Assembly: GCF_028736155.1 (NCBI RefSeq)
Contig: NZ_CP117879.1
Span: 930,001-994,000 of the forward strand
Source: Flavobacterium sp. KACC 22763
GTDB lineage: Bacteria > Bacteroidota > Bacteroidia > Flavobacteriales > Flavobacteriaceae
Direction: 5' to 3'
DNA: 64,000 nt
Shown: positions 5,897 to 63,723 of the stretch, piece by piece
Position numbering within the stretch: position 1 is the stretch's first letter
Layout: each line of letters starts with the position of its first letter
The notes under the pieces: generated by a model
Told to the model about the DNA's origin: nothing
The model's input: the letters and a program-made list of their open reading frames with translations, nothing else
Databases searched by the model: none
Translations under genes and position numbers: made by a program

Positions 5897-8320
5897 TTAT
5901 TCATATTTTAAATATTTCAGCACATCGACTTTTGTTGCTTGATACGCTTTTGCTAAAACAATACATAGCGTTAAAAACAATAAAAGCAAAAAGGAAAGTA
6001 GAAACGGGAGCATCGGAATTTCGATTCTAAAAGCAAAATTATTCAACCATTTCTGCAATAAAACATAGGCAGGAAATACAGCAATAAGAAAACCTATTGC
6101 ACAATACACTACATATTGTTTAGACAGTTCTTTCAATAAGATATTGGTCTCTGCGCCCAAAGTTTTTCGAATCGCAATTTCTTTCATTCTTCTTTGAATG
6201 GAATAAGATGCGAGAGCAAAAAGTCCGAAAAGGGCAATAAGAATTACAATAACATTGAGCAGAGAAAACAAATTTTTCTGCTTTACATAAGACTCGTAAG
6301 TTCGGGCGTATTCTTTATCGGCAAAATCATATTGAAAAGGATATTCGGTATCGACTTTTGTTTTCCAGAATTTTTCAATTGCAGCAATACTACTTTGAAT
6401 CTGATCTGCTTTTAATTTTACGTAGATTCGATTCATTTCATTGGCCATATCCAGAGATTTTATATGATAAAAAGTAATCGGCGGAACATCGACTTCTGGA
6501 CTTAAAAGATTAAAATCTTTTACCACGCCAATAATCCTCATTTTCTGATTTCCAATTTTGATTTCTTTACCAATAGGGTCTTTTATCTGCATTAAAGCCA
6601 ATGATTTTTCATTAACTAAAACAGAATTTATAGTGTCTGAAGCTATGTTTGGACTAAGATTTCTTCCTTTTATTACTTTTATATTTAGCAGATTTAGCAT
6701 GTCATAATCAAGTCCGATTGCTTTTTGTTTGAAAAGCACATCTCGATACCAAATTGGCCATTGTGAATCATCTTCTCCATCAAAAGAAAGAAGACCAGTT
6801 GAAACTTTTTCAACGCCTTTAATTTTTGAAAGTTCCTGTTTTATAGTGTTATATCTTTCAAAAATATTCTTTCCAACATTTTCTCCCTGATAATAGGAAG
6901 ACGGAAGATTTAACGAAATTGCCATAACCTGATCGCCTTTAAAACCAAGGTCTTTATTGTTTAGATATTTAATTTGCTGATAGACAACAACAGAACCAAT
7001 AATAAAAAAGGAAGCAATGGCAAATTGAAAAATCAGCATTCCATTTCTAATCCAAACGCCACTTTTGCTTCGAGCATAATTGCCTCTTAAAACTTTTAAA
7101 GTCTCAAAATTAGCAACATATAAAGCAGGAAATATTCCAGCAAAAACAATGGTTATAATGAAAACTAGTATTAATTGAAGATAAAATTGACTTTCGATTA
7201 TCCTTAAATTTTTCTCCAAAAAAGAATTGTAATAAGGAAGAGCAATTTCTACAATCATTAACGCTAATAAAACCGAAAAAGCTGTCATTAAAAAGGTTTC
7301 AAAAATGAATTGCCAAACAATCTGCTTTTTGGAGGCTCCCAAAACTTTACGAACTCCAACTTCTTTAGCTCTTTTAATCGAATTTGCCGTTGCCAAATTG
7401 ATGTAATTGACAATAGACAGAATAAGAATTAAAATTGATAAGCAAGCCATAATTACCAGAAACTGATAATTTCCTCTTCCTTCCGGATATCCATCAGTAA
7501 CAGAATGCAGCCTAGCAGATGAAAGCGGTTCCATCAAAACTTTGAAACTTCCCATTTTCTTGACCATTTCGGCAGGTGTAAAACCTGCTTGTTTGGCAGT
7601 TCTTACAATAACCTCGTCATAAAATACTTTATCAAGCATTTTTCTGGTCGATTCTACTTTTGATGGATTTTTTAGTTTCACTAATACTTTTAGAACAAAA
7701 AGGCCAGGGTTTTTGTCAGGATCTGCCAAGTCTTTCATGCGGTTTATCACTATGTTTGGTGCGATCGATGAATTTCCTGGAATGCGATAAACACCTGAAA
7801 TTGTAAACGTAGCATCCAAACATTTGATTTGTTTGCCTATTGGGTTTTTATTTCCAAAAAAACGTTCTGCAAGTTTCTCTGAAATGGCAATACTGTTTTC
7901 GTCTTTTATAGCCGATTTGGCATTTCCATAAATAAACTTAAAGGGAAAAAGAGAGAAGAAGTCTTTTTCGGCATTTACGATTTTATCTACAAATTCCTTT
8001 TGCCCATTGTAAACCACTTTGTCTTTTTGATACCATTCATCTGCATAAACAACAGCTTCTACGTTAGGATCATTTTCTAAATGAGGTTTTAAACGTACAG
8101 GATTATTTGCCGTTACCGGCATATCGCTTAATTGCGCTAAAACCTGATAAACTTTGTCTTTTTCTGGATTCCAAGCATTGTAGCTGTGTTCGTCGTTCCA
8201 ATATAGAAGCGCGAAAATTAAACCCGAAATTCCTATTGATAATCCGAGAATATTGAGAGCAGTAAAAAGCTTACTGTGTTTGATTTGATAGATAAATATA
8301 TTGATCCAGTTCTTTAGCAT
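5897..8320 (-). CDS. FtsX/MacB-like ABC transporter permease, third in the operon
   Basis: An 807-residue permease with two repeated units of periplasmic MacB_PCD domain plus FtsX domain. Membrane helices can be seen near the N terminus (FTALNILGLSIGISGLIFALLYW), around residues 285-410 (three helices), after the internal repeat (WIRNGMLIFQFAIASFFIIGSVVVY), and three more at the C terminus. Conserved cytosolic FtsX motifs are RAKEVGVRKVLGASKKQIVWQF and RMKEIAIRKTLGAETNILLKEL. It ends in KVDVLKYLKYE, as do the two upstream paralogues. It follows the second permease by 31 bp in an operon headed by the ATPase gene. Such transporters act mechanically on periplasmic substrates (macrolides, lipoproteins, peptides); the substrate here is unknown. 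Confidence 0.9.
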   Translation of the reverse strand: MLKNWINIFIYQIKHSKLFTALNILGLSIGISGLIFALLYWNDEHSYNAWNPEKDKVYQVLAQLSDMPVTANNPVRLKPHLENDPNVEAVVYADEWYQKDKVVYNGQKEFVDKIVNAEKDFFSLFPFKFIYGNAKSAIKDENSIAISEKLAERFFGNKNPIGKQIKCLDATFTISGVYRIPGNSSIAPNIVINRMKDLADPDKNPGLFVLKVLVKLKNPSKVESTRKMLDKVFYDEVIVRTAKQAGFTPAEMVKKMGSFKVLMEPLSSARLHSVTDGYPEGRGNYQFLVIMACLSILILILSIVNYINLATANSIKRAKEVGVRKVLGASKKQIVWQFIFETFLMTAFSVLLALMIVEIALPYYNSFLEKNLRIIESQFYLQLILVFIITIVFAGIFPALYVANFETLKVLRGNYARSKSGVWIRNGMLIFQFAIASFFIIGSVVVYQQIKYLNNKDLGFKGDQVMAISLNLPSSYYQGENVGKNIFERYNTIKQELSKIKGVEKVSTGLLSFDGEDDSQWPIWYRDVLFKQKAIGLDYDMLNLLNIKVIKGRNLSPNIASDTINSVLVNEKSLALMQIKDPIGKEIKIGNQKMRIIGVVKDFNLLSPEVDVPPITFYHIKSLDMANEMNRIYVKLKADQIQSSIAAIEKFWKTKVDTEYPFQYDFADKEYARTYESYVKQKNLFSLLNVIVILIALFGLFALASYSIQRRMKEIAIRKTLGAETNILLKELSKQYVVYCAIGFLIAVFPAYVLLQKWLNNFAFRIEIPMLPFLLSFLLLLFLTLCIVLAKAYQATKVDVLKYLKYE

Positions 8321-53796: not shown

Positions 53797-54558
53797 TTAT
53801 TTACTCGCTTCAATAATCACATTCGCCACTTTCTCTGGCTGAGAAATAAATACCACGTGGCTACCTTTAATTTCGGTGATTTTTGTGTTAGAGCGTTTGT
53901 ACATGGCGTGCTGAATACTCGGAACAATACTTTTATCTTCAGTCGCTACGATTCCGTAAGAAGGTTTCGTTCTCCACGCGGCTTTAGTTATTGGTGTTAA
54001 AAAGCCTTGCGCATGGAAAGCACCTTGTGAAGCATACATAAAATCGGCTTGTTCTTTGCTCAAATCTCCTGCAAAACCAGCGTGAAATTTAGCTTTGTCA
54101 TAATAAGCGATTCCTTTTTCATCTGGAGGCAATACACCATTTTCTGGAGCTGGAGGAGCAGTTTGCAGCCACTGAACAGAATTTTCGCCATTATCAGGCT
54201 GTAAAGCCGCTACGTAAACCAAAGCTGCTACTTTTGGGTGATTTCCAGCTTCTGTAATTACAGTTCCTCCCCAAGAATGTCCCACCAAAATAGTTGGTCC
54301 GTCTTGTTTGTCTAAGGCTAAGTTTGTAGCTTGAACGTCATCTTCCAAAGAACTCAACGGATTCTGAACAATGGTTACGTTATAACCTTTTTTAGTCAAA
54401 ACCTTGTATAAACCTTGCCATCCAGAACCATCTGCAAAGGCACCGTGAACTAATACGACATTTTTAATTTTAGGATTAGTTTGTGCATTTACGTTTGTGA
54501 ATGCTAAACTAAAAATTAGTACTGCGAATGCTAAAAAACTTTTAAATATTGTTTTCAT
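53797..54558 (-). CDS. Exported alpha/beta hydrolase
   Basis: 253 residues with a signal peptide (FLAFAVLIFSLAFTNVNAQ). The hydrolase fold is plain: oxyanion region VVLVHGAFADGSGWQ, nucleophile Ser in ILVGHSWGGTVITEAG and catalytic His in EIKGSHVVFISQPEKVA. It resembles the salicylate esterase/hydroxynitrile lyase-like group annotated as alpha/beta fold hydrolase. Likely periplasmic. It lies between OxyR and OsmC genes; a stress-linked role is suggested only by position. Confidence 0.88.
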   Translation of the reverse strand: MKTIFKSFLAFAVLIFSLAFTNVNAQTNPKIKNVVLVHGAFADGSGWQGLYKVLTKKGYNVTIVQNPLSSLEDDVQATNLALDKQDGPTILVGHSWGGTVITEAGNHPKVAALVYVAALQPDNGENSVQWLQTAPPAPENGVLPPDEKGIAYYDKAKFHAGFAGDLSKEQADFMYASQGAFHAQGFLTPITKAAWRTKPSYGIVATEDKSIVPSIQHAMYKRSNTKITEIKGSHVVFISQPEKVANVIIEASK

Positions 54559-54662
54559 TTTATTTAGATTTTAAATTTTGAATAGAAATTCCAATTTTGA
54601 AAATTCCAAATTCCAATTTTCCATTCAGGCTTGGAATTTGGGATTTTTGTATTGGGATTTAT

Positions 54663-55079
54663 TTAAAGTAAAGTGATTGATAAAGTAATCTCCGTATTCA
54701 GTAATTTAGAAATTGGACAAATTTCTTTTGCTTTTTGAGCAGTTTGCTGAAAGTCTTCTGCTGAAATTCCAGGTACTTTTCCTGTAAGTTCTAAAGCAAT
54801 TAAAGTAATAGTTCCGTCTTCAAAAGTCACTTTAGCAGTGGTATCTAAATCTTCTGGAACAAAACCAGCCTCAGATAATAAAAAGCTCAACTGCATTGTA
54901 AAACATCCAGAATGTGCCGCTGCGATTAATTCTTCAGGATTGGTTCCGACACCTTGCTCAAAACGAGTTTTAAATGATAATTGCGCATTGTCTAAAGTTG
55001 TGCTTTGTGTACTGATGGTTCCTTTTCCTTCCATTCCTGTACCTTTCCAGTTTGCGTTTGCTCTTCTTGTAAATTTCAT
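54663..55079 (-). CDS. osmC: OsmC-type peroxiredoxin
   Basis: 138 residues. The OsmC signature includes the paired Cys: VGTNPEELIAAAHSGCFTMQLSFLLSEAG and KEICPISKLLN, with the conserved Arg in KTRFEQG. These proteins reduce organic hydroperoxides in the cytoplasm through the two Cys. A good Bacteroidota promoter (TTTG ... TACCTTTG) lies about 60-90 bp upstream. Two genes of the same superfamily are present in this region, this one and the Ohr-type gene at 60469. Confidence 0.94.
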   Translation of the reverse strand: MKFTRRANANWKGTGMEGKGTISTQSTTLDNAQLSFKTRFEQGVGTNPEELIAAAHSGCFTMQLSFLLSEAGFVPEDLDTTAKVTFEDGTITLIALELTGKVPGISAEDFQQTAQKAKEICPISKLLNTEITLSITLL

Positions 55080-55572: not shown

Positions 55573-58155
55573 ATGAATAATCTAACTTTTAAATTTATGA
55601 GAAATGCTTTTCTAATACTTGGAGTTTGTTTGAGTGCAGTTTTGTTCTCGTGCAAAAAAGATAAAGATACGGAGCAGTCAAGTTCTGATACTGGAAAATC
55701 TGAAACTGCCGACTCTACATTAATTGCAGATCGTGGCTGGCCTCGTGAAGCGGAGAATAACGGTACAAAACTGGTTTATTATCAGCCTCAGGTAGACGAT
55801 TGGAAAGATTTTAAAGAACTCACAGCTCGAGTGGCTTTTTCGCTGACTCCAAAAGACGGAAAACAGGTTTTGGGCGTGGCTTCATTAAAAGCAGAAACTT
55901 TGGTAGACAAAGACAACCGAAGCGCTTTTATTAAAAATCTTCAGGTAACCGATATACGTTTTCCTGCTCTGGATAAAAAGAAAGTGCCAGAAATGGAAAA
56001 GCTGTTTAAAGAAACGTTGCCTCAGAGCGGAGATCCTATTTCAGTAGATCGTATTTTGGCAGATTTAAGTCATACCAAAAGTCCGGCAAAGGGAATTGCG
56101 GGTAAAAACGATCCTCCAACTATTTTTTATAGCACGAATCCGTCGATTTTGCTTATTGTGCAAGGCGAACCCGTTTTGGTGCCTGTAGAAAAAACAGATA
56201 TTCAATATGTAGTAAATACCAATTGGGATTTGTTTTTTGATAAAACGACAAAAGATTATTATTTGTTGGTGGAGAATATCTGGTTGACTTCGAAAAATGT
56301 AGCAGGCAAATGGACCAAAACAACCAAATTGCCTTCGGGTTTAAGTAATCTGCCTTCGGGACAGAATTTTGATGATGTTAAGAAAATGATTCCGCCTCCG
56401 TCTTCTGGCGGAGCTCCAGAGGTTTTCTACAGCAATAAACCAGCTGAATTGATTGCTATAAACGGAAGTCCGAAGTTTGAAAAAATTCCAGGAACGAAAT
56501 TGTTATACATTGATAATACCGAAAATGACGTTTTTGCCGACGAAAATAAAGGGCAGTATTATGTATTATTGTCGGGAAGATGGTTTAAGTCTAAAGAACT
56601 AACAGGTCCGTGGAGTTATGCCAGCAATAGTCTTCCGGCCGATTTTGCTAAAATTCCGAAAGATTCTCCACGTGCGAATGTATTGTCATCTGTGCCAGGA
56701 ACGCAGGAAGCAAATGATGCTGTAATGTTATCTCAGGTTCCGACAACGGCTATTTTAAAGAAATCGGATGCTGAGGCAAAAGTAAAAGTATCGTATGATG
56801 GTGGAACTCCTCAGTTTAAACCTATTGATGGAACGAAAATGCAATATGCAAGCAATACGCAAGAGAAGATCGTAAAAGTGGGTGATTTGTATTATTTGTG
56901 TTTTCAGGCAGTTTGGTTTATGTCGACAAGCCCGAATGGGCCTTGGAAAACATGCGATTCTGTTCCGAAAGAAATTTATACGATTCCACCAAGTTCGCCA
57001 GTATATAATGTTACGTATGTAACGCAAACCACAACCGACACAACGGTTGAAAGCAGTGCAACGGCGGGTTATTTGGGCGCTTTTATTATTGGTGCTACAT
57101 TCGGCGCTATCTTAACATATGGTACAGGATGGTATTATCCTCCTTATATGTATTACGGCGGAATGTATCCAATTTATCGTCCGTGGCCTTATGCGTACGG
57201 AGGTGGAGCGGTTTACAATCCGTGGACAGGAGGCTATGCCGCAGGTAGACGCGTTTACGGACCTTATGGCGCAGCGGGAACTTCGGCTTGGTACAATCCT
57301 GCAACAGGAAGATACGGGCGTTCTGCAAGCGTGCAAGGCTGGTATGGCGGACGCACGGCTGCAAGCACATACAATCCGTGGACGGGTAATTATGCGAGAA
57401 CCAATCAAGGACATAATGCGTACGCGCAATGGGGACATTCGGCTGCGACAAACGGAAATCAGTGGGCACAAACGGGACATATCACCACAAGACGCGGAAC
57501 TGCGATTGGTTATGAAACTTCTGGCGGAAATAAAGGTGTAATTACACACAGAAGAGGCGGAGGAACTACAATTCATACCAATAATAATGTTTACGCAGGC
57601 CACGACGGACATGTTTATAAAAGAGACGCCAACGGAAACTGGAGTCATTATAATAATGGAAACGGCGGTTGGACACAAGCAGGAACTTTGGGTTCGTCGA
57701 AAAAAGCGGGTGAAGGGATTCAGAATAGAGCTAACCAAGGACTTGGAGCAAATGGCGCTGGAGAACGAATTCAACGCGATAATCAAGGGCTTGGTGCAAA
57801 TGGAGCAGGAGAAAGGATTCAGCGCGATAACAATCAGGGACTTGGAGCAAATGGAGCGGGAGAACGAATGCAGCGTGACAACCAAAATCTAGGTGGTGAA
57901 ACCCGAATGGGTGATGGAATGCAACGAGATAATTTCCCTAAAGCAGATCAAACGCTCGGACAGCCTAATAAACCGCTTGGAGAAGCTGGACGTCCAGATA
58001 TTACAAATGATCTAGACCGTTCGGCTATGTCAAGAGACCGTGGTGAAATGCAAACCAGAAATTTTCAAAATATCCAAAGAAGCGGAGGTTTTAATGGAGG
58101 CGGCTTTGGCGGTGGCGGTTTTAGAGGCGGAGGAGGCTTTAGAGGTAGAAGATAA
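55573..58155 (+). CDS. Large repeat-rich lipoprotein with Gly-rich C terminus
   Basis: 860 residues from the ATG at 55573 (MNNLTFKFMRNAFLILGVCLSAVLFSCKKDKD); the ATG at 55597 is equally good, and upstream in-frame codons lack signal-peptide character. The lipobox is LFSCKK. Residues ~190-490 contain three copies of a domain with motif (I/V)FYS(T/N)xP ... Y(V/I)xNT(N/E) ... YYxLxxxxWxxSxxxxGxW. A hydrophobic helix (LGAFIIGATFGAILTYGTGWY) leads into Tyr/Gly-rich repeats with YNPWTGxYA, then three 16-17 residue units (NQGLGANGAGERIQRD) and the end FGGGGFRGGGGFRGRR. Probably an envelope or surface protein; I cannot name the function. Confidence 0.85.
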   Translation: MNNLTFKFMRNAFLILGVCLSAVLFSCKKDKDTEQSSSDTGKSETADSTLIADRGWPREAENNGTKLVYYQPQVDDWKDFKELTARVAFSLTPKDGKQVLGVASLKAETLVDKDNRSAFIKNLQVTDIRFPALDKKKVPEMEKLFKETLPQSGDPISVDRILADLSHTKSPAKGIAGKNDPPTIFYSTNPSILLIVQGEPVLVPVEKTDIQYVVNTNWDLFFDKTTKDYYLLVENIWLTSKNVAGKWTKTTKLPSGLSNLPSGQNFDDVKKMIPPPSSGGAPEVFYSNKPAELIAINGSPKFEKIPGTKLLYIDNTENDVFADENKGQYYVLLSGRWFKSKELTGPWSYASNSLPADFAKIPKDSPRANVLSSVPGTQEANDAVMLSQVPTTAILKKSDAEAKVKVSYDGGTPQFKPIDGTKMQYASNTQEKIVKVGDLYYLCFQAVWFMSTSPNGPWKTCDSVPKEIYTIPPSSPVYNVTYVTQTTTDTTVESSATAGYLGAFIIGATFGAILTYGTGWYYPPYMYYGGMYPIYRPWPYAYGGGAVYNPWTGGYAAGRRVYGPYGAAGTSAWYNPATGRYGRSASVQGWYGGRTAASTYNPWTGNYARTNQGHNAYAQWGHSAATNGNQWAQTGHITTRRGTAIGYETSGGNKGVITHRRGGGTTIHTNNNVYAGHDGHVYKRDANGNWSHYNNGNGGWTQAGTLGSSKKAGEGIQNRANQGLGANGAGERIQRDNQGLGANGAGERIQRDNNQGLGANGAGERMQRDNQNLGGETRMGDGMQRDNFPKADQTLGQPNKPLGEAGRPDITNDLDRSAMSRDRGEMQTRNFQNIQRSGGFNGGGFGGGGFRGGGGFRGRR
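57733..57879 (+). repeat. Three in-frame 48-51 bp tandem repeats
   Basis: The units encode NQGLGANGAGERIQRD, the same again, and a 17-residue N-NQGLGANGAGERMQRD; a degenerate fourth unit follows up to 57930. Unit length is a multiple of three, so copy number can change without shifting the frame. Confidence 0.85.
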
Positions 58156-58249: not shown

Positions 58250-58440
58250 AACCGCAAAGTTCGCAATCCCGATAGCTATCGGGATACGCAAGGCACACAA
58301 GGATATTTTTAGAGTTAAACTTATTAAAAGTGTTAAGAACGCAAAACTTTGTGAGAATAAAACTTTACGACTTCGCGTCTTTGCGAGATTAAAAAACTTA
58401 GCGAGTCTTGCGTAAATCTTAGCGTGCTTTGCGGTTAATC
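58250..58440. repeat. CGCAAAG repeat block with CCCGATAGCTATCGGG palindrome
   Basis: A perfect 20 bp palindrome, ATCCCGATAGCTATCGGGAT (58266-58285), sits in a non-coding stretch rich in CGCAAAG, GCGTCTTTGCGAG and TTGCG words on both strands. Similar text recurs at 59010-59240 and 61807-61850. Confidence 0.65.
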
Positions 58441-58473: not shown

Positions 58474-58548
58474 TGTCCAGTTCACCTTAGAGTTTGTCCG
58501 TTTCACCTATTTTCTGATTTCGTATGAAGGGTTATCGAAATACTTTTG
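58474..58548 (+). promoter_or_regulatory. Promoter of the cupin gene with two 13 bp direct repeats
   Basis: TGTCCAGTTCACC (58474-58486) and TGTCCGTTTCACC (58495-58507) start 21 bp apart. The -7 box TACTTTTG is at 58541-58548, 33 bp after the second repeat. The ATG follows at 58592. The same layout precedes the hydrolase gene at 59380. Confidence 0.7.
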
Positions 58549-58591
58549 ACGAAGAAATTAACAGAAAAACAAATAATTTAAATCAGAAGTT

Positions 58592-59002
58592 ATGGAAACG
58601 AAAAAACAAAAAACATGGGTTATAATCGCAATAATTGTTTTAGGAATCATTGCCTTTTTAGTTCCGAATCAGATTACCGCACAAGGAGTAAAACGTATCG
58701 ATTTGCAAAAACATGATCTAAGTACTCCAGGAAAAGAAATGGTTCAGGCACGAATCGATTTTGACGGACATTCAGTTTTTGGGAAACATTCTCATCCAGG
58801 CGAAGAAGTAATTTATGTGGTTGAAGGTTCGTTGGAATATAAGATAGAAGGTGAAAGACCAGTAACACTAAAAGCAGGAGAAGTGCTTTTTATTCCAGCA
58901 GGTGTAGTGCATTCTGCTAAAAATAATACAAATGCTAAAGCATCAGAACTGGCGACTTATATAGTGGAAAAAGGAAAACCTATTTTGACTATGAAGAATT
59001 AA
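58592..59002 (+). CDS. Exported cupin-domain protein
   Basis: 136 residues. A signal peptide or anchor (TWVIIAIIVLGIIAFLVPNQITAQ) precedes a single cupin barrel: HSHPGEEVIYVVEGSLEYKIEGERPVTLKAGEVLFIPAGVVHSAKN. The His and Glu residues of HSHPGEE and the His in VVHSAKN are the metal ligands of cupins. The protein is probably periplasmic; substrate unknown. It shares its regulatory region design with the hydrolase gene at 59380. Confidence 0.88.
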   Translation: METKKQKTWVIIAIIVLGIIAFLVPNQITAQGVKRIDLQKHDLSTPGKEMVQARIDFDGHSVFGKHSHPGEEVIYVVEGSLEYKIEGERPVTLKAGEVLFIPAGVVHSAKNNTNAKASELATYIVEKGKPILTMKN

Positions 59003-59240
59003 ATTTTTAACCGCAATCCCGATAGCTATCGGGAGCAAAGGTTTTTTTACTATTGGTTTCTGCTGAAATACGCAAAGTTCGCAAAGCTTTGTGTGAATCT
59101 TGGGCTTTTTAATCTCGCAATCCCGATAGCTATCGGGAGCGAAGTCGCAAAGTTTTATTCTCACAGTTTTGCGAACTTAAAGAAACTTAGTTTCAACTCA
59201 GAAAAACTTTGTGCACTCTGCGAAAATCCTTTGCGAACTC
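59003..59240. repeat. CGCAAAG repeat block with two CCCGATAGCTATCGGG palindromes
   Basis: Perfect 16 bp palindromes lie at 59018-59033 and 59122-59137, each preceded by CGCAAT or GCAAT and followed by GAGC. The stretch repeats words of the block at 58250. No ORF is supported here. Confidence 0.65.
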
Positions 59241-59260
59241 TGCGATACAAAATCTTACCC

Positions 59261-59335
59261 TGTCCGCTTCAACCCAAACTTTGTCCACTTCACCTTTTTT
59301 TACCTTTTAAAACAAGCATTGTCAAGATACCTTTG
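59261..59335 (+). promoter_or_regulatory. Promoter of the hydrolase gene with two 13 bp direct repeats
   Basis: TGTCCGCTTCAAC (59261-59273) and TGTCCACTTCACC (59282-59294) start 21 bp apart. The -7 box TACCTTTG is at 59328-59335, again 33 bp after the second repeat. The sequence TTTGACGAAGAAATTAAC after the box is identical to the one upstream of the cupin gene. Confidence 0.7.
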
Positions 59336-60468: not shown

Positions 60469-60879
60469 GTGGAAACAAAAGTTTTATACACAGGAAAAAC
60501 ACATACAACAGGTGGTAGAGAAGGAGCTTCTCAAAGTTCAGACGAACAATTGAATATCAAATTAAGTGCACCGGGATCTTCACGTCCGGGAACAAATCCA
60601 GAACAGTTGTTTGCTGCGGGATGGTCAGCTTGTTTTATTGGAGCTTTAGGAATTGCGGCTTCTAAACTTGGCGTTAGGCTTCCAGCAGAAACCGCTGTAG
60701 ATGCCGAAGTGGATTTGTGCGTAACAGAAGGAGAATATTCTCTTCAGGCAAGATTAAATATCAGCCTTCCTGGAATTGATATTCAAACTGCAGAAGCTTT
60801 GGCGGCGCAAGCGCATCAGACTTGTCCGTATTCTAAAGCTACTAGAGGAAATATAAATGTTGAGATTAATATTCTTTAA
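60469..60879 (+). CDS. ohr: Ohr-type organic hydroperoxide reductase
   Basis: 136 residues. It starts with ETKVLYTGKTHTTGGREG as Ohr proteins do. The active-site Cys lie in GTNPEQLFAAGWSACFIGALG and AHQTCPYSKATRGN, with the conserved Arg in SSRPGTNPEQ. It reduces organic and fatty-acid hydroperoxides using lipoylated or dithiol donors. I saw no MarR/OhrR repressor next to it; control by OxyR or by the LytTR system in this region is possible. It starts 103 bp after the hydrolase stop. Confidence 0.94.
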   Translation: METKVLYTGKTHTTGGREGASQSSDEQLNIKLSAPGSSRPGTNPEQLFAAGWSACFIGALGIAASKLGVRLPAETAVDAEVDLCVTEGEYSLQARLNISLPGIDIQTAEALAAQAHQTCPYSKATRGNINVEINIL

Positions 60880-60968: not shown

Positions 60969-61700
60969 ATGAAAAGGATAAAAATAATATTGATTTTTTC
61001 GCTGTTTCTTTTGATTGGAAATAGCATATTCAGCCAAAACAATTCAAAAAGTTTTGCACTTTTAGAATTATACACTTCAGAAGGCTGTTCGAGCTGTCCG
61101 CCAGCAGATGAATTGCTGGGAAGAATTCAGAATGAATACCGTGATAAAAACGTTTATGTATTGGCGTATCATGTCGATTATTGGGACAAACAAGGTTGGA
61201 AAGATGTTTTCAGCAGTGCCGATTTCACCAAAAGACAATATGATTATGCTCAATTTCTAGGAAAAGAACCAATCTACACGCCTCAAGTAATCATTAACGG
61301 AAAAACAGATTATATCGGTTCTCAGGAAACAAGCCTCAGAAACGGAATTAAATCGGCGCTTTCAAAACCAGTTTCGACGAGTTTAAGTTTAGAAGCAAAT
61401 CAAAATGCGAATTCCTTTTCTGTAAATTATAATGTAGAAAGCACTTCAAGAAACAGTCGTTTATTAATTGCTGTTGTTCAGAAAGAAGCTAAAAGCAATG
61501 TGAAAAGAGGAGAGAATGCTCATAGGGTTTTGTCGCATTATCAAATTGTTCGTAATCTGCAATCTGTAGATTTAAATAAATCCAAAAAAGGAACAGCATC
61601 GATTCATCTTCCTAAAAATTATAATGCACAGGATTTCGAAATTATTGGCTTTGTTCAAGATATGAATTCAGGTGCTATTTTGGGAGTTAAGAGAGCTTAG
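60969..61700 (+). CDS. DUF1223 thioredoxin-fold exported protein
   Basis: 243 residues with a signal peptide (IILIFSLFLLIGNSIFS). The DUF1223 signature is FALLELYTSEGCSSCPPADELLGRI, with a CxxC motif (CSSC) in the position of the thioredoxin active site, then VYVLAYHVDYWDKQGWKDVF and IYTPQVIINGKTDYIGS with the cis-Pro. It is likely a periplasmic thiol-disulfide or redox-related protein; the family's reaction is not known. Its position behind the ohr gene suggests an oxidative-stress set. Confidence 0.88.
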   Translation: MKRIKIILIFSLFLLIGNSIFSQNNSKSFALLELYTSEGCSSCPPADELLGRIQNEYRDKNVYVLAYHVDYWDKQGWKDVFSSADFTKRQYDYAQFLGKEPIYTPQVIINGKTDYIGSQETSLRNGIKSALSKPVSTSLSLEANQNANSFSVNYNVESTSRNSRLLIAVVQKEAKSNVKRGENAHRVLSHYQIVRNLQSVDLNKSKKGTASIHLPKNYNAQDFEIIGFVQDMNSGAILGVKRA

Positions 61701-61958: not shown

Positions 61959-62975
61959 ATGGAAAAAACAAAACGTTTTCAGGTTTCGCTCAAAGTCATT
62001 TGGGGAAGTTCGATTGCATTGGCAGTTATGGCTTCAATACCTAAATTATTTGATGCCGATTCTACACCTGGAGATCTTATTATAAATTCTTCAATTACAC
62101 TCCTGTTTTCCCTTTTTATATGGTATTACAACATTTACAGTTTGCCAAAATTTTCTGCAAATCATGCCAATAAAAGTCTCTTTAATTGGAAGCTTTTACT
62201 GAGTGTTATTCTAGGGATTGTGCTGATGGTGATTCTGGTAATTGCACATCAGGAACTGTTTCAGGTTTCAAAAATGGATGCGCCAATCATGTTTGAACTT
62301 CGAGGAGTTTTAATCAACTTGATTGTATATATGTTTTTGCATTTGCTTTTTCAAAACTATCAGACACAGCAAATGGGAGTTGAGCTGGAACGTACCAAAG
62401 CTGTAAATTTAGGCGCTCAATACGAATTATTAAAACAGCAGGTAAATCCGCATTTTTTGTTTAATAGTTTGAATACGCTGAAATCTATGGTTGATATCCA
62501 AGATCCGCAGAGTTCAGATTTTATATTGAAATTATCCGATTTTTATCGTTTTACGCTTGAAAGTCGAAAAATGGATTTGATTCCGCTAAGCGAAGAACTT
62601 CAGATTTTAGATTCGTACGTTTATCTGTTGAAAGCACGTTTTGAAGACGGATTTGTTTTAGAAAACGAAGTAAATCCAAAACAGTACGATTCGGCAATTC
62701 CGCCTTTCACATTGCAATTATTGATTGAAAACTGCATCAAACATAATGTCGTTTCTTTAGACAAACCTTTAAAAATAAGACTTTATACAGAAAACGAGTT
62801 TTTGGTAGTTGAAAATAAAATTCAGCTCAAAAGAGGCGCGGTTTCTACAGGTGTTGGCTTAGATAACATCAATCAGCGTTTTATGCACTTGATTCACAAA
62901 GAAATTGAAATTGACAAAGACGAAACTACCTTTAAAGTAAAAATACCACTTAATTATGACTATCATAATAATTGA
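61959..62975 (+). CDS. LytS-type sensor histidine kinase
   Basis: 338 residues. Four N-terminal membrane helices (IALAVMASIPKLF, LIINSSITLLFSLFIWYYNIYSL, LLLSVILGIVLMVILVIAHQ, LINLIVYMFLHLLFQNY) are followed by a His_kinase domain with QQVNPHFLFNSLNTLKSMVD (phospho-His) and an ATPase domain with LLIENCIKHNVV and GVGLDNINQRF. There is no periplasmic sensor domain, so a membrane-embedded signal is likely. It overlaps the response regulator gene by 20 bp and forms a two-component pair with it. Confidence 0.93.
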   Translation: MEKTKRFQVSLKVIWGSSIALAVMASIPKLFDADSTPGDLIINSSITLLFSLFIWYYNIYSLPKFSANHANKSLFNWKLLLSVILGIVLMVILVIAHQELFQVSKMDAPIMFELRGVLINLIVYMFLHLLFQNYQTQQMGVELERTKAVNLGAQYELLKQQVNPHFLFNSLNTLKSMVDIQDPQSSDFILKLSDFYRFTLESRKMDLIPLSEELQILDSYVYLLKARFEDGFVLENEVNPKQYDSAIPPFTLQLLIENCIKHNVVSLDKPLKIRLYTENEFLVVENKIQLKRGAVSTGVGLDNINQRFMHLIHKEIEIDKDETTFKVKIPLNYDYHNN

Positions 62976-63723
62976 AGATGAAGTAAAAACAGCCAAAGCA
63001 CTTGGTCAGCTAATTCTGAGCATCAGACCCGATGTTCAGATTTTGTCGTATATACAAAGCATTGATGGCGCAGTAGATTATCTTTTAGAAAATGATCAGC
63101 CAGATCTTATTTTTATGGATATTCAGCTGGCAGACGGTCAGTGTTTTGAGATTTTTAAGAATGTTGAGGTTTTATCGCCTGTTATTTTCTGTACCGCTTT
63201 TGATGATTATGCGATTGAAGCTTTTAAGTCAAACGGAATTGATTATGTGCTGAAACCTTTTTCGAGAGATAGCATTTCGCAAGCTTTGAAGAAAGCTGGA
63301 GAACTGAAAAACTTCTTTCAGAGAAATAAAAAAGCGATGCCCGATTTTGATTATTTGCTTACGCGAAATGGAGAAAACAAAGGAAAAAGCAGTTTTTTAG
63401 TTTTCAAAAACAACAAATATCAAACGGTTTTAACGGAGAATATTGCATTTTTTTTCATTAAAAACGAAACGCCAACAATTATGACTTTAGATAAAAACGA
63501 ATATCCGCTAACACAGTCGTTAGATGAAATTCATAAACTTTTATCGCCAATTCAGTTCTTTAGAATCAATAGACAATATTTGGTTAATTTTTCTTCAATT
63601 AGAGAAGCAGAACATTATTTTTCCCGCAAGATAATTGTAAAACTAAGTGTTCCAACAGAAGAAAAATTATTGGTTGGAAAAGAGAAAGCAACCGCATTTT
63701 TAAGCTGGTTAGAAAATAGATAA
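62956..63723 (+). CDS. LytTR-family response regulator
   Basis: 255 residues. The receiver domain has acidic residues Glu7/Asp8 and phospho-acceptor Asp55 in LIFMDIQL. The C-terminal LytTR domain (SFLVFKNNKYQTVLTENIAFFFIKNETPTIMTLDKNEYPLTQSLDEIHKLLSPIQFFRINRQYLVNF) binds direct repeats spaced by about 21 bp in known family members. Repeats with that spacing occur in front of the cupin and hydrolase genes, 3-4 kb upstream. It is the partner of the LytS kinase. Confidence 0.94.
   Translation: MTIIIIEDEVKTAKALGQLILSIRPDVQILSYIQSIDGAVDYLLENDQPDLIFMDIQLADGQCFEIFKNVEVLSPVIFCTAFDDYAIEAFKSNGIDYVLKPFSRDSISQALKKAGELKNFFQRNKKAMPDFDYLLTRNGENKGKSSFLVFKNNKYQTVLTENIAFFFIKNETPTIMTLDKNEYPLTQSLDEIHKLLSPIQFFRINRQYLVNFSSIREAEHYFSRKIIVKLSVPTEEKLLVGKEKATAFLSWLENR

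Follow-up and report, generated by a model that had tools for sequence, protein, structure and literature searches.

Two neighboring genes of Flavobacterium sp. KACC 22763, one for a cupin-domain protein and one for an alpha/beta hydrolase, are preceded by the same pair of direct repeats, and the locus thus raises the question of which protein reads these repeats and where else they are read. Both genes lie in the stretch analyzed here (the window), which comprises 64,000 nucleotides of contig NZ_CP117879.1 (positions 930,001 to 994,000). In front of each gene TGTCCnnTTCAnC occurs twice in exact copies that start 21 bp apart, and the second copy ends exactly 33 bp before a -7 box (TACTTTTG and TACCTTTG, respectively), as an earlier note on this sequence had described. 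The form TAnnTTTG at -12 to -5 is that of the flavobacterial sigma-A -7 box in the available part of the literature (PMC9723704). The same note held that no good -33 box is present, which is nearly right, yet a TTT is kept 10 bases past copy 2 (100, 93 and 78% conserved in 73 related promoters), whereas the G that would complete a TTTG is absent (4%). It had also relied on two unrelated genes sharing so precise a geometry. The geometry stands but the independence does not: promoters A and B have 21 of 25 bases in common 3′ of the -7 box, one of the two is thus probably a copy of the other, and the better evidence comes from a third promoter and from promoters in other taxonomic orders.

Table 1. 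Features of the locus. Positions count from the first base of the window, except for the third pair, which lies beyond its end and is numbered on the genome.
Feature	Position	Strand	Basis or remark
Pair A half-site 1 (TGTCCAGTTCACC)	58474..58486	+	exact sequence match
Pair A half-site 2 (TGTCCGTTTCACC)	58495..58507	+	exact sequence match
Cupin promoter, degenerate -33 element TTT, 10 bases past copy 2	58518..58520	+	sequence; columns conserved in 73 promoters
Cupin promoter, -7 box TACTTTTG, 33 bp past pair A	58541..58548	+	sequence; TTTG so placed in 94/94 related pairs
Cupin-domain protein, 136 aa	58592..59002	+	Pfam Cupin_2
Pair B half-site 1 (TGTCCGCTTCAAC)	59261..59273	+	exact sequence match
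Pair B half-site 2 (TGTCCACTTCACC)	59282..59294	+	exact sequence match
Hydrolase promoter, degenerate -33 element TTT, 10 bases past copy 2	59305..59307	+	sequence; conserved columns
Hydrolase promoter, -7 box TACCTTTG, 33 bp past pair B	59328..59335	+	sequence; TTTG so placed in 94/94 related pairs
Alpha/beta hydrolase, 328 aa	59380..60366	+	Pfam Abhydrolase_1
Ohr family peroxiredoxin	60469..60879	+	NCBIfam TIGR03561 above cut-off
DUF1223 protein	60969..61700	+	Pfam
LytS-type histidine kinase, 338 aa, hydrophobic N-terminal part	61959..62975	+	PF06580, 87.6 bits
LytTR response regulator LytTR1, proposed binder of the pairs	62956..63723	+	receiver PF00072 and LytTR PF04397, above Pfam cut-off
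Third pair (pair C)	genome 994397-994430	-	397 bp beyond window end; before DoxX-like gene

The LytS/LytTR pair that had been placed 2.6 kb past the hydrolase start is indeed there, with the kinase gene beginning 2,579 bp after that start and overlapping the LytTR1 gene by 20 bp. LytTR1 has the receiver and LytTR domains of a two-component regulator and adjoins a PF06580-type membrane kinase with hydrophobic N-terminal segments; its residues E7, D8, E9, D55, T80 and K100 are invariant in a 7-sequence alignment. The genome holds 17 LytTR matches altogether. A second LytS/LytTR pair, at L001:14463-16318, lies 3.7 kb past the first (LytTR2, genome 998562-999314) and is followed by an RND-adaptor-like gene (by eye). 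Among the enzymes of the cluster, the hydrolase has the haloalkane dehalogenase model as its best NCBIfam match (56.7 bits, far under the cut-off of 265), and the ohr gene probably shares one transcript with it, to judge from their co-orientation and the 102-bp gap between them. Upstream of the cluster, a second alpha/beta hydrolase gene and a second OsmC-family gene lie on the reverse strand at 53797-55079, some 3.5 kb before the cupin gene, with no repeat pair near them, and positions 57600-58155 encode the repetitive C-terminus of a 917-aa protein (GERIQRDNQGLGANGA units and a Gly-rich tail). The gaps upstream of both promoters contain a perfect 16-bp palindrome, CCCGATAGCTATCGGG (58268-58283, 59018-59033 and 59122-59137), which is a dispersed repeat with 43 exact places in the genome against none for its reversed control.

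Across the 5.56-Mb genome there are eight exact half-sites. Six of them make up three 21-bp pairs, which surround the LytS/LytTR genes in a span of 5,957 bp; the other two stand alone inside reading frames (judged by eye), and a whole-genome scan that allowed up to two mismatches found no pair beyond these three. Pair C has the same 33-bp distance to a -7-like box (CACATTTG), and the gene behind it, which is placed beyond the LytS/LytTR genes on the opposite strand, encodes a DoxX_2 protein. The kinase gene itself has no pair immediately in front of it. Lone half-sites with at most one mismatch are no rarity in the window, where 5 were counted against 2.65 expected from shuffles, with 15 of 100 shuffles reaching 5.

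The pair and LytTR1 are inherited together within the genus. At up to two mismatches, the threshold used hereafter unless stated otherwise, the pair occurs at 81 places in 40 of 249 Flavobacterium genomes, and the reversed control pattern gave 11 matches in 249 genomes; these scans, together with the genome-wide half-site counts, rule out a chance origin of the pairs. A LytTR1 orthologue (at least 83% identity over the full length, with the 10 best candidates per genome scored) is present in 37 of the 249. The earlier note had proposed that the repeats define a LytTR regulon and that co-occurrence with orthologues of this regulator would bear on it, and the proposal is well supported on this point: the pair is found in 34 of the 37 genomes with LytTR1 and in 6 of the 212 without (Fisher p 3e-32, relatedness of the genomes being ignored), and in 33 of the 34 a match adjoins the regulator. 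Counted by place, 73 of the 81 lie within 10 kb of a LytTR1-type gene, two lie elsewhere in LytTR1 genomes (G052, and G079 at position 192521) and six lie in genomes that lack LytTR1.

The exceptions were looked at individually. G052 has its sole pair at this threshold off-locus, in a reading frame, and two 3-mismatch pairs at the regulator locus, while in the three genomes with LytTR1 and no such pair (G013, G054 and G230) scoring with a matrix derived from the remaining promoters picks up weaker pairs in front of the same genes, at an unchanged distance from the -7 box. Five of the six pair-bearing genomes that lack LytTR1 look like chance: of their stray matches with one or two mismatches (G185, G139, G078, G030 and G224), taken together with the off-locus match of G052, none of six has TTTG at +38 and three lie in reading frames. 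The sixth, G057, is the only one of the 249 genomes with an exact pair and no LytTR1. Its pair and promoter are intact and precede a doxX gene truncated after 27 codons (L129, about 7200-8250); the genome has no LytTR1 or hydrolase orthologue, there is no cupin, ohr, DUF1223 or kinase match in the 18-kb stretch analyzed, and the locus now holds other genes, an SDR enzyme and an HxlR-type regulator (by eye). This pair looks like the remnant of a deleted cluster. The hydrolase gene is found in exactly the same 37 genomes as LytTR1, so the presence statistic in the genus cannot by itself separate regulator from target, and cases that break this link were therefore sought in LytTR2, in the outgroups discussed below and in G244, where a second LytTR, 78% identical, is accompanied by a further pair in front of an ohr-type gene, and neither a hydrolase nor a cupin match lies beside it.

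The position of the pair relative to the promoter is strictly conserved. With up to three mismatches allowed at loci that carry LytTR1 or its 71-78% identical paralogues, TTTG stands at positions 38-41 past copy 2 in all 94 pairs (73 of 73 with at most two mismatches and 21 of 21 with three), which bears out the promoter-bound arrangement expected of such a regulon; a 3-mismatch pair outside this set, beside a 57%-identical regulator (L142), has its TTTG likewise placed. In the column profile of the 73 pairs GTC, TT and TTTG are invariant, an A at 17 and TTT at 19-21 of the spacer are conserved and a T-run follows copy 2; the -7 box starts with TA in 55 and with CA in 18, and the 7-mer CATTTCA is the commonest form of copy 1. 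A scan for the exact pair in a contig collection with one genome for each of 84,980 species, from which genomes very near that of the window may be missing, returned 65 stretches, 42 of them from Flavobacterium. TTTG stands at +38 in 56 of 56 Flavobacterium pairs, some of these stretches being from the same species as the genus set. Site, geometry, conservation and co-inheritance with LytTR1 are all read directly from the genomes.

The genes behind the 94 pairs form a short list, as judged by the top BLAST match to the first ATG-initiated frame of at least 80 aa: hydrolase (33), doxX (28), cupin (18), an epoxide hydrolase with an EHN domain (9), nitrilase (4; NCBIfam Nit6803 model at 478.2 bits, just below the cut-off of 502.6), ohr (1) and one other. 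The family names suggest a response to, or handling of, organic peroxides, epoxides, nitriles and other reactive organic compounds. We found nothing relevant on this gene set in Flavobacterium in the papers searched.

Outside the genus, the exact pair was found in 23 stretches. Fourteen were set aside, namely seven tandem 21-bp repeat arrays, five with the pair inside an ORF of at least 100 aa and two Pseudomonas stretches without such an ORF, and the nine Bacteroidota loci kept have no ORF of that length over the pair. TTTG stands at +38 in five of the nine (L035, L052, L059, L086 and L095), with the full TAnnTTTG in L095 only; it stands at +19 behind the four exact pairs of L044, L060 (twice) and L063, and at neither place in L040. 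L044, L060 and L063 belong to one Saprospiraceae genome (MAG-138), in which two of the four pairs precede long secreted-type proteins (by eye). At four of the nine loci, two from Cytophagales and two from Saprospiraceae, the exact pair with TTTG at +38 adjoins a LytTR gene whose product is 39-41% identical to LytTR1. In a tree these four proteins group with LytTR1 in one clade (support 100/98), which excludes the 15 further LytTR proteins that entered it from the window's own genome (one of the 17 matches, L204, being absent). No LytTR1-like gene was found in the available stretch of L035, L040, L044, L060 or L063, whose exact pairs are intergenic. The genes downstream, where visible, differ from the Flavobacterium targets: a small protein without a Pfam match in L052 (that of L059 is similar) and a DJ-1/PfpI protein in L095, the contig of L086 ending first. 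Because presence of the pair was the criterion for the outgroup loci, and similarity to LytTR1 that for their LytTRs, the link that they suggest between the pair and the LytTR1 clade is strong but not blind. At up to one mismatch the pair occurs in just 8 of 392 genomes of the phylum, six of them within the genus, and the TGTCC-type half-site is therefore narrow; of the other two (G495 and G523), the former carries its pair, with one mismatch, immediately behind a LytTR gene and has no TTTG at +38.

These patterns make it very likely that the pair is the operator of LytTR1, which would bind it and activate the genes for the cupin protein, the hydrolase (with ohr as a probable co-target) and DoxX, as well as those for the epoxide hydrolase and the nitrilase in relatives; binding, activation and the signal behind them we infer from the comparisons above. 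Another factor, LytTR2 for example, might instead occupy the pair, with LytTR1 merely co-inherited. LytTR2 is encoded nearby in this genome and in several relatives, and also in G057, where LytTR1 is gone, but its orthologues (at least 78% identity) are present in 21 of 249 genomes, 15 of which have the pair, so that 25 of the 40 pair genomes lack it; moreover, five genomes with LytTR2 and neither LytTR1 nor its remnant have no pair, and the outgroup pairs follow the LytTR1 clade, all of which leaves this reading quite improbable. It is hardly credible that a promoter region was copied before several genes and that its repeats have no regulatory role: the kinship of promoters A and B past the -7 box and the recurrence of the stretch ACGAAGAAATTAAC in relatives speak for copying, but across the 73 pairs the half-site core bases and the TTTG are nearly or fully invariant amid columns that vary, promoter C has just 10 of 25 bases in common past its -7 box, and the pairs in other orders precede other genes.

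LytTR1 might also bind the pair and repress, or only fine-tune, the genes behind it. Sequence alone does not reveal whether the effect is positive or negative. The pair stands upstream of the -33 and -7 elements without overlapping them, and the -33 element is weak. According to the available part of one study (PMC6193735), LytTR repeats are strongly biased toward a position 10 bp upstream of the -35 box, from which they activate; we regard repression or fine-tuning as improbable. In the operator reading that we prefer, the membrane kinase would phosphorylate the adjoining LytTR1 upon a signal, and two LytTR1 molecules would then bind the two TGTCCnnTTCAnC half-sites on the same side of the helix, 21 bp being two turns, one turn (10 bp) upstream of the weak -33 element, from where LytTR1 may recruit sigma-A RNA polymerase to the TAnnTTTG promoter. 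Transcription is predicted to begin a few bases past the TTTG.

A general consensus for LytTR half-sites has reportedly been described by Nikolskaya and Galperin. LytTR sites are given as 9-11-nt repeats separated by 11-13 nt in the accessible text of a published study (PMC4847170), and by that definition the 21-bp period and the fixed place upstream of -33 and -7 have the layout of a LytTR site; the arrangement also fits the bias to 10 bp upstream of -35. Several described systems resemble it in part, as far as the available portions of the two sources go. The LRS-like operons of Bacteroides, of the same phylum, have a nearly identical predicted layout (TCCGGTATTCA, 11 bp, ACCGGAAATCA, 11 bp, TGTA as -33, 19 bp, TATCTTTG; PMC6193735, Table 3), yet they differ in a 22-bp period, another half-site and a site before their own operon, and their regulator is a membrane-bound LytTR protein with an NfeD/DUF2154 partner (PMC6193735), whereas the partner here is a kinase. 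The YpdA/YpdB system of E. coli likewise consists of a LytS-type kinase and a LytTR response regulator, and its direct repeat GGCATTTCAT shares the 7-mer CATTTCA with the commonest form of copy 1 here, but the 5′ end of its half-site is different and the target promoter studied is that of yhjX (PMC4847170). The HdrRM and BrsRM systems of Streptococcus have two direct repeats (e.g., ACCACTTAT), mostly 12 bp apart (a 21-bp period), from which an activator works 4-11 bp upstream of a -35 sequence, but an inhibitory membrane protein takes the place of the kinase and the promoters are of the -35/-10 type (PMC6193735).

LytTR1 itself fits neither the BtsR model nor the LRS type. Its score against the BtsR model NF008677 (74.2 bits) is below the cut-off of 246, no YpdB-named family is among the best 25 of 28 NCBIfam families, and with a histidine kinase as partner and a receiver domain of its own it departs from the LRS type, in which a regulator is paired with an inhibitory membrane protein and no kinase. 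The suggestion of a new LytTR specificity thus survives in part: the half-site is distinct, but the predicted TCCGGTATTCA of Bacteroides and the GGCATTTCAT of YpdB are close to it in form. In the titles and abstract openings covered, a body outside which most of the subscription literature lies, no published target site of a Flavobacterium LytTR regulator was found; a LytTR gene was mutated in a coevolution study of F. johnsoniae, according to its available part (PMC10197871). What would be new here is the proposed regulon with its own half-site, while the arrangement is of a known LytTR type, and the nearest published case in the sources as available is the predicted Bacteroides repeat (PMC6193735).

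The same geometry in a looser form may extend beyond this clade. A protein search of the phylum gave matches in 119 of 392 genomes, and a forward test used 40 of the first 47 LytTR loci (seven extra copies from genomes already used were omitted), the proteins being 33-58% identical to LytTR1 and not its orthologues (4 of the 40 are genus paralogues), with 40 stretches from the same genome set, unscreened for LytTR genes, as control. The pattern TTCA-N17-TTCA-N38/N39-TTTG occurs 18 times in 15 of the 40 LytTR loci and 3 times in the controls, the N39 distance having been known beforehand from the window and N38 not. In a 26 x 45 grid of spacings with a mean of 0.56 only the N38, N39 and (17,59) cells reach 5, and no control cell exceeds 4. 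Five of the 18 matches lie in reading frames by a crude check. The independent cases are fewer than 18, since some promoters are homologous: in one family (L255, L262 and L269) the matches precede homologous 339-aa genes, which are by position the kinase genes of LytTR operons, and in L264 and L266 they precede homologous 808-aa genes. In the former family the pair and a TTTG 5-6 bases before the ATG stand at L255:9211, L262:9579 and L269:6079, with the 339-aa gene directly upstream of the LytTR gene, an arrangement suggestive of a kinase-regulator operon under its own control, whose transcript may be leaderless. The (17,59) cell holds 13 matches, of which 5 are third repeats before an N38 pair; such triple 21-bp repeats with TTCA cores and TTTG 38 bp past the last were seen at L253:5545, L264:5906, L266:8523, L267:9662 and L272:2861, with an ORF shortly downstream in four of the five. 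The 5′ parts of the half-sites differ among LytTR loci (e.g., ATCCCGATTCAT twice in L264), and these data hint that many LytTR promoters of Bacteroidota have the period and the promoter distance in common, with a 5′ part that is clade-specific. In the window's own genome the loose pattern TTCA-N17-TTCA-N39-TTTG is not discriminating alone: it gives 11 matches against 3 for the reversed control, three being the modules described here and eight lying elsewhere, two of the eight within 10 kb of another LytTR match.

On this basis many kinase-linked LytTR regulators of Bacteroidota could share one promoter grammar, with two or three TTCA-core half-sites spaced at a strict period of 21 bp, 33-34 bp between the end of the last one and a TTTG-type -7 box, and only the 5′ part varying between clades; in one Saprospiraceae genome the box would be about two helical turns nearer. 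We put this forward as a tentative generalization, somewhat short of even odds, because 5 of the 18 matches fall into two homologous groups and because of the result for the loose pattern in the own genome. If it is true, targets beside LytTR genes across the phylum would be readable from geometry, and the rigid geometry offers a way to seek other LytTR regulons there. For Flavobacterium, the locus brings together a regulator, its probable operator, a promoter spacing and a compact, detoxification-type target set, which makes the proposed regulon directly testable.
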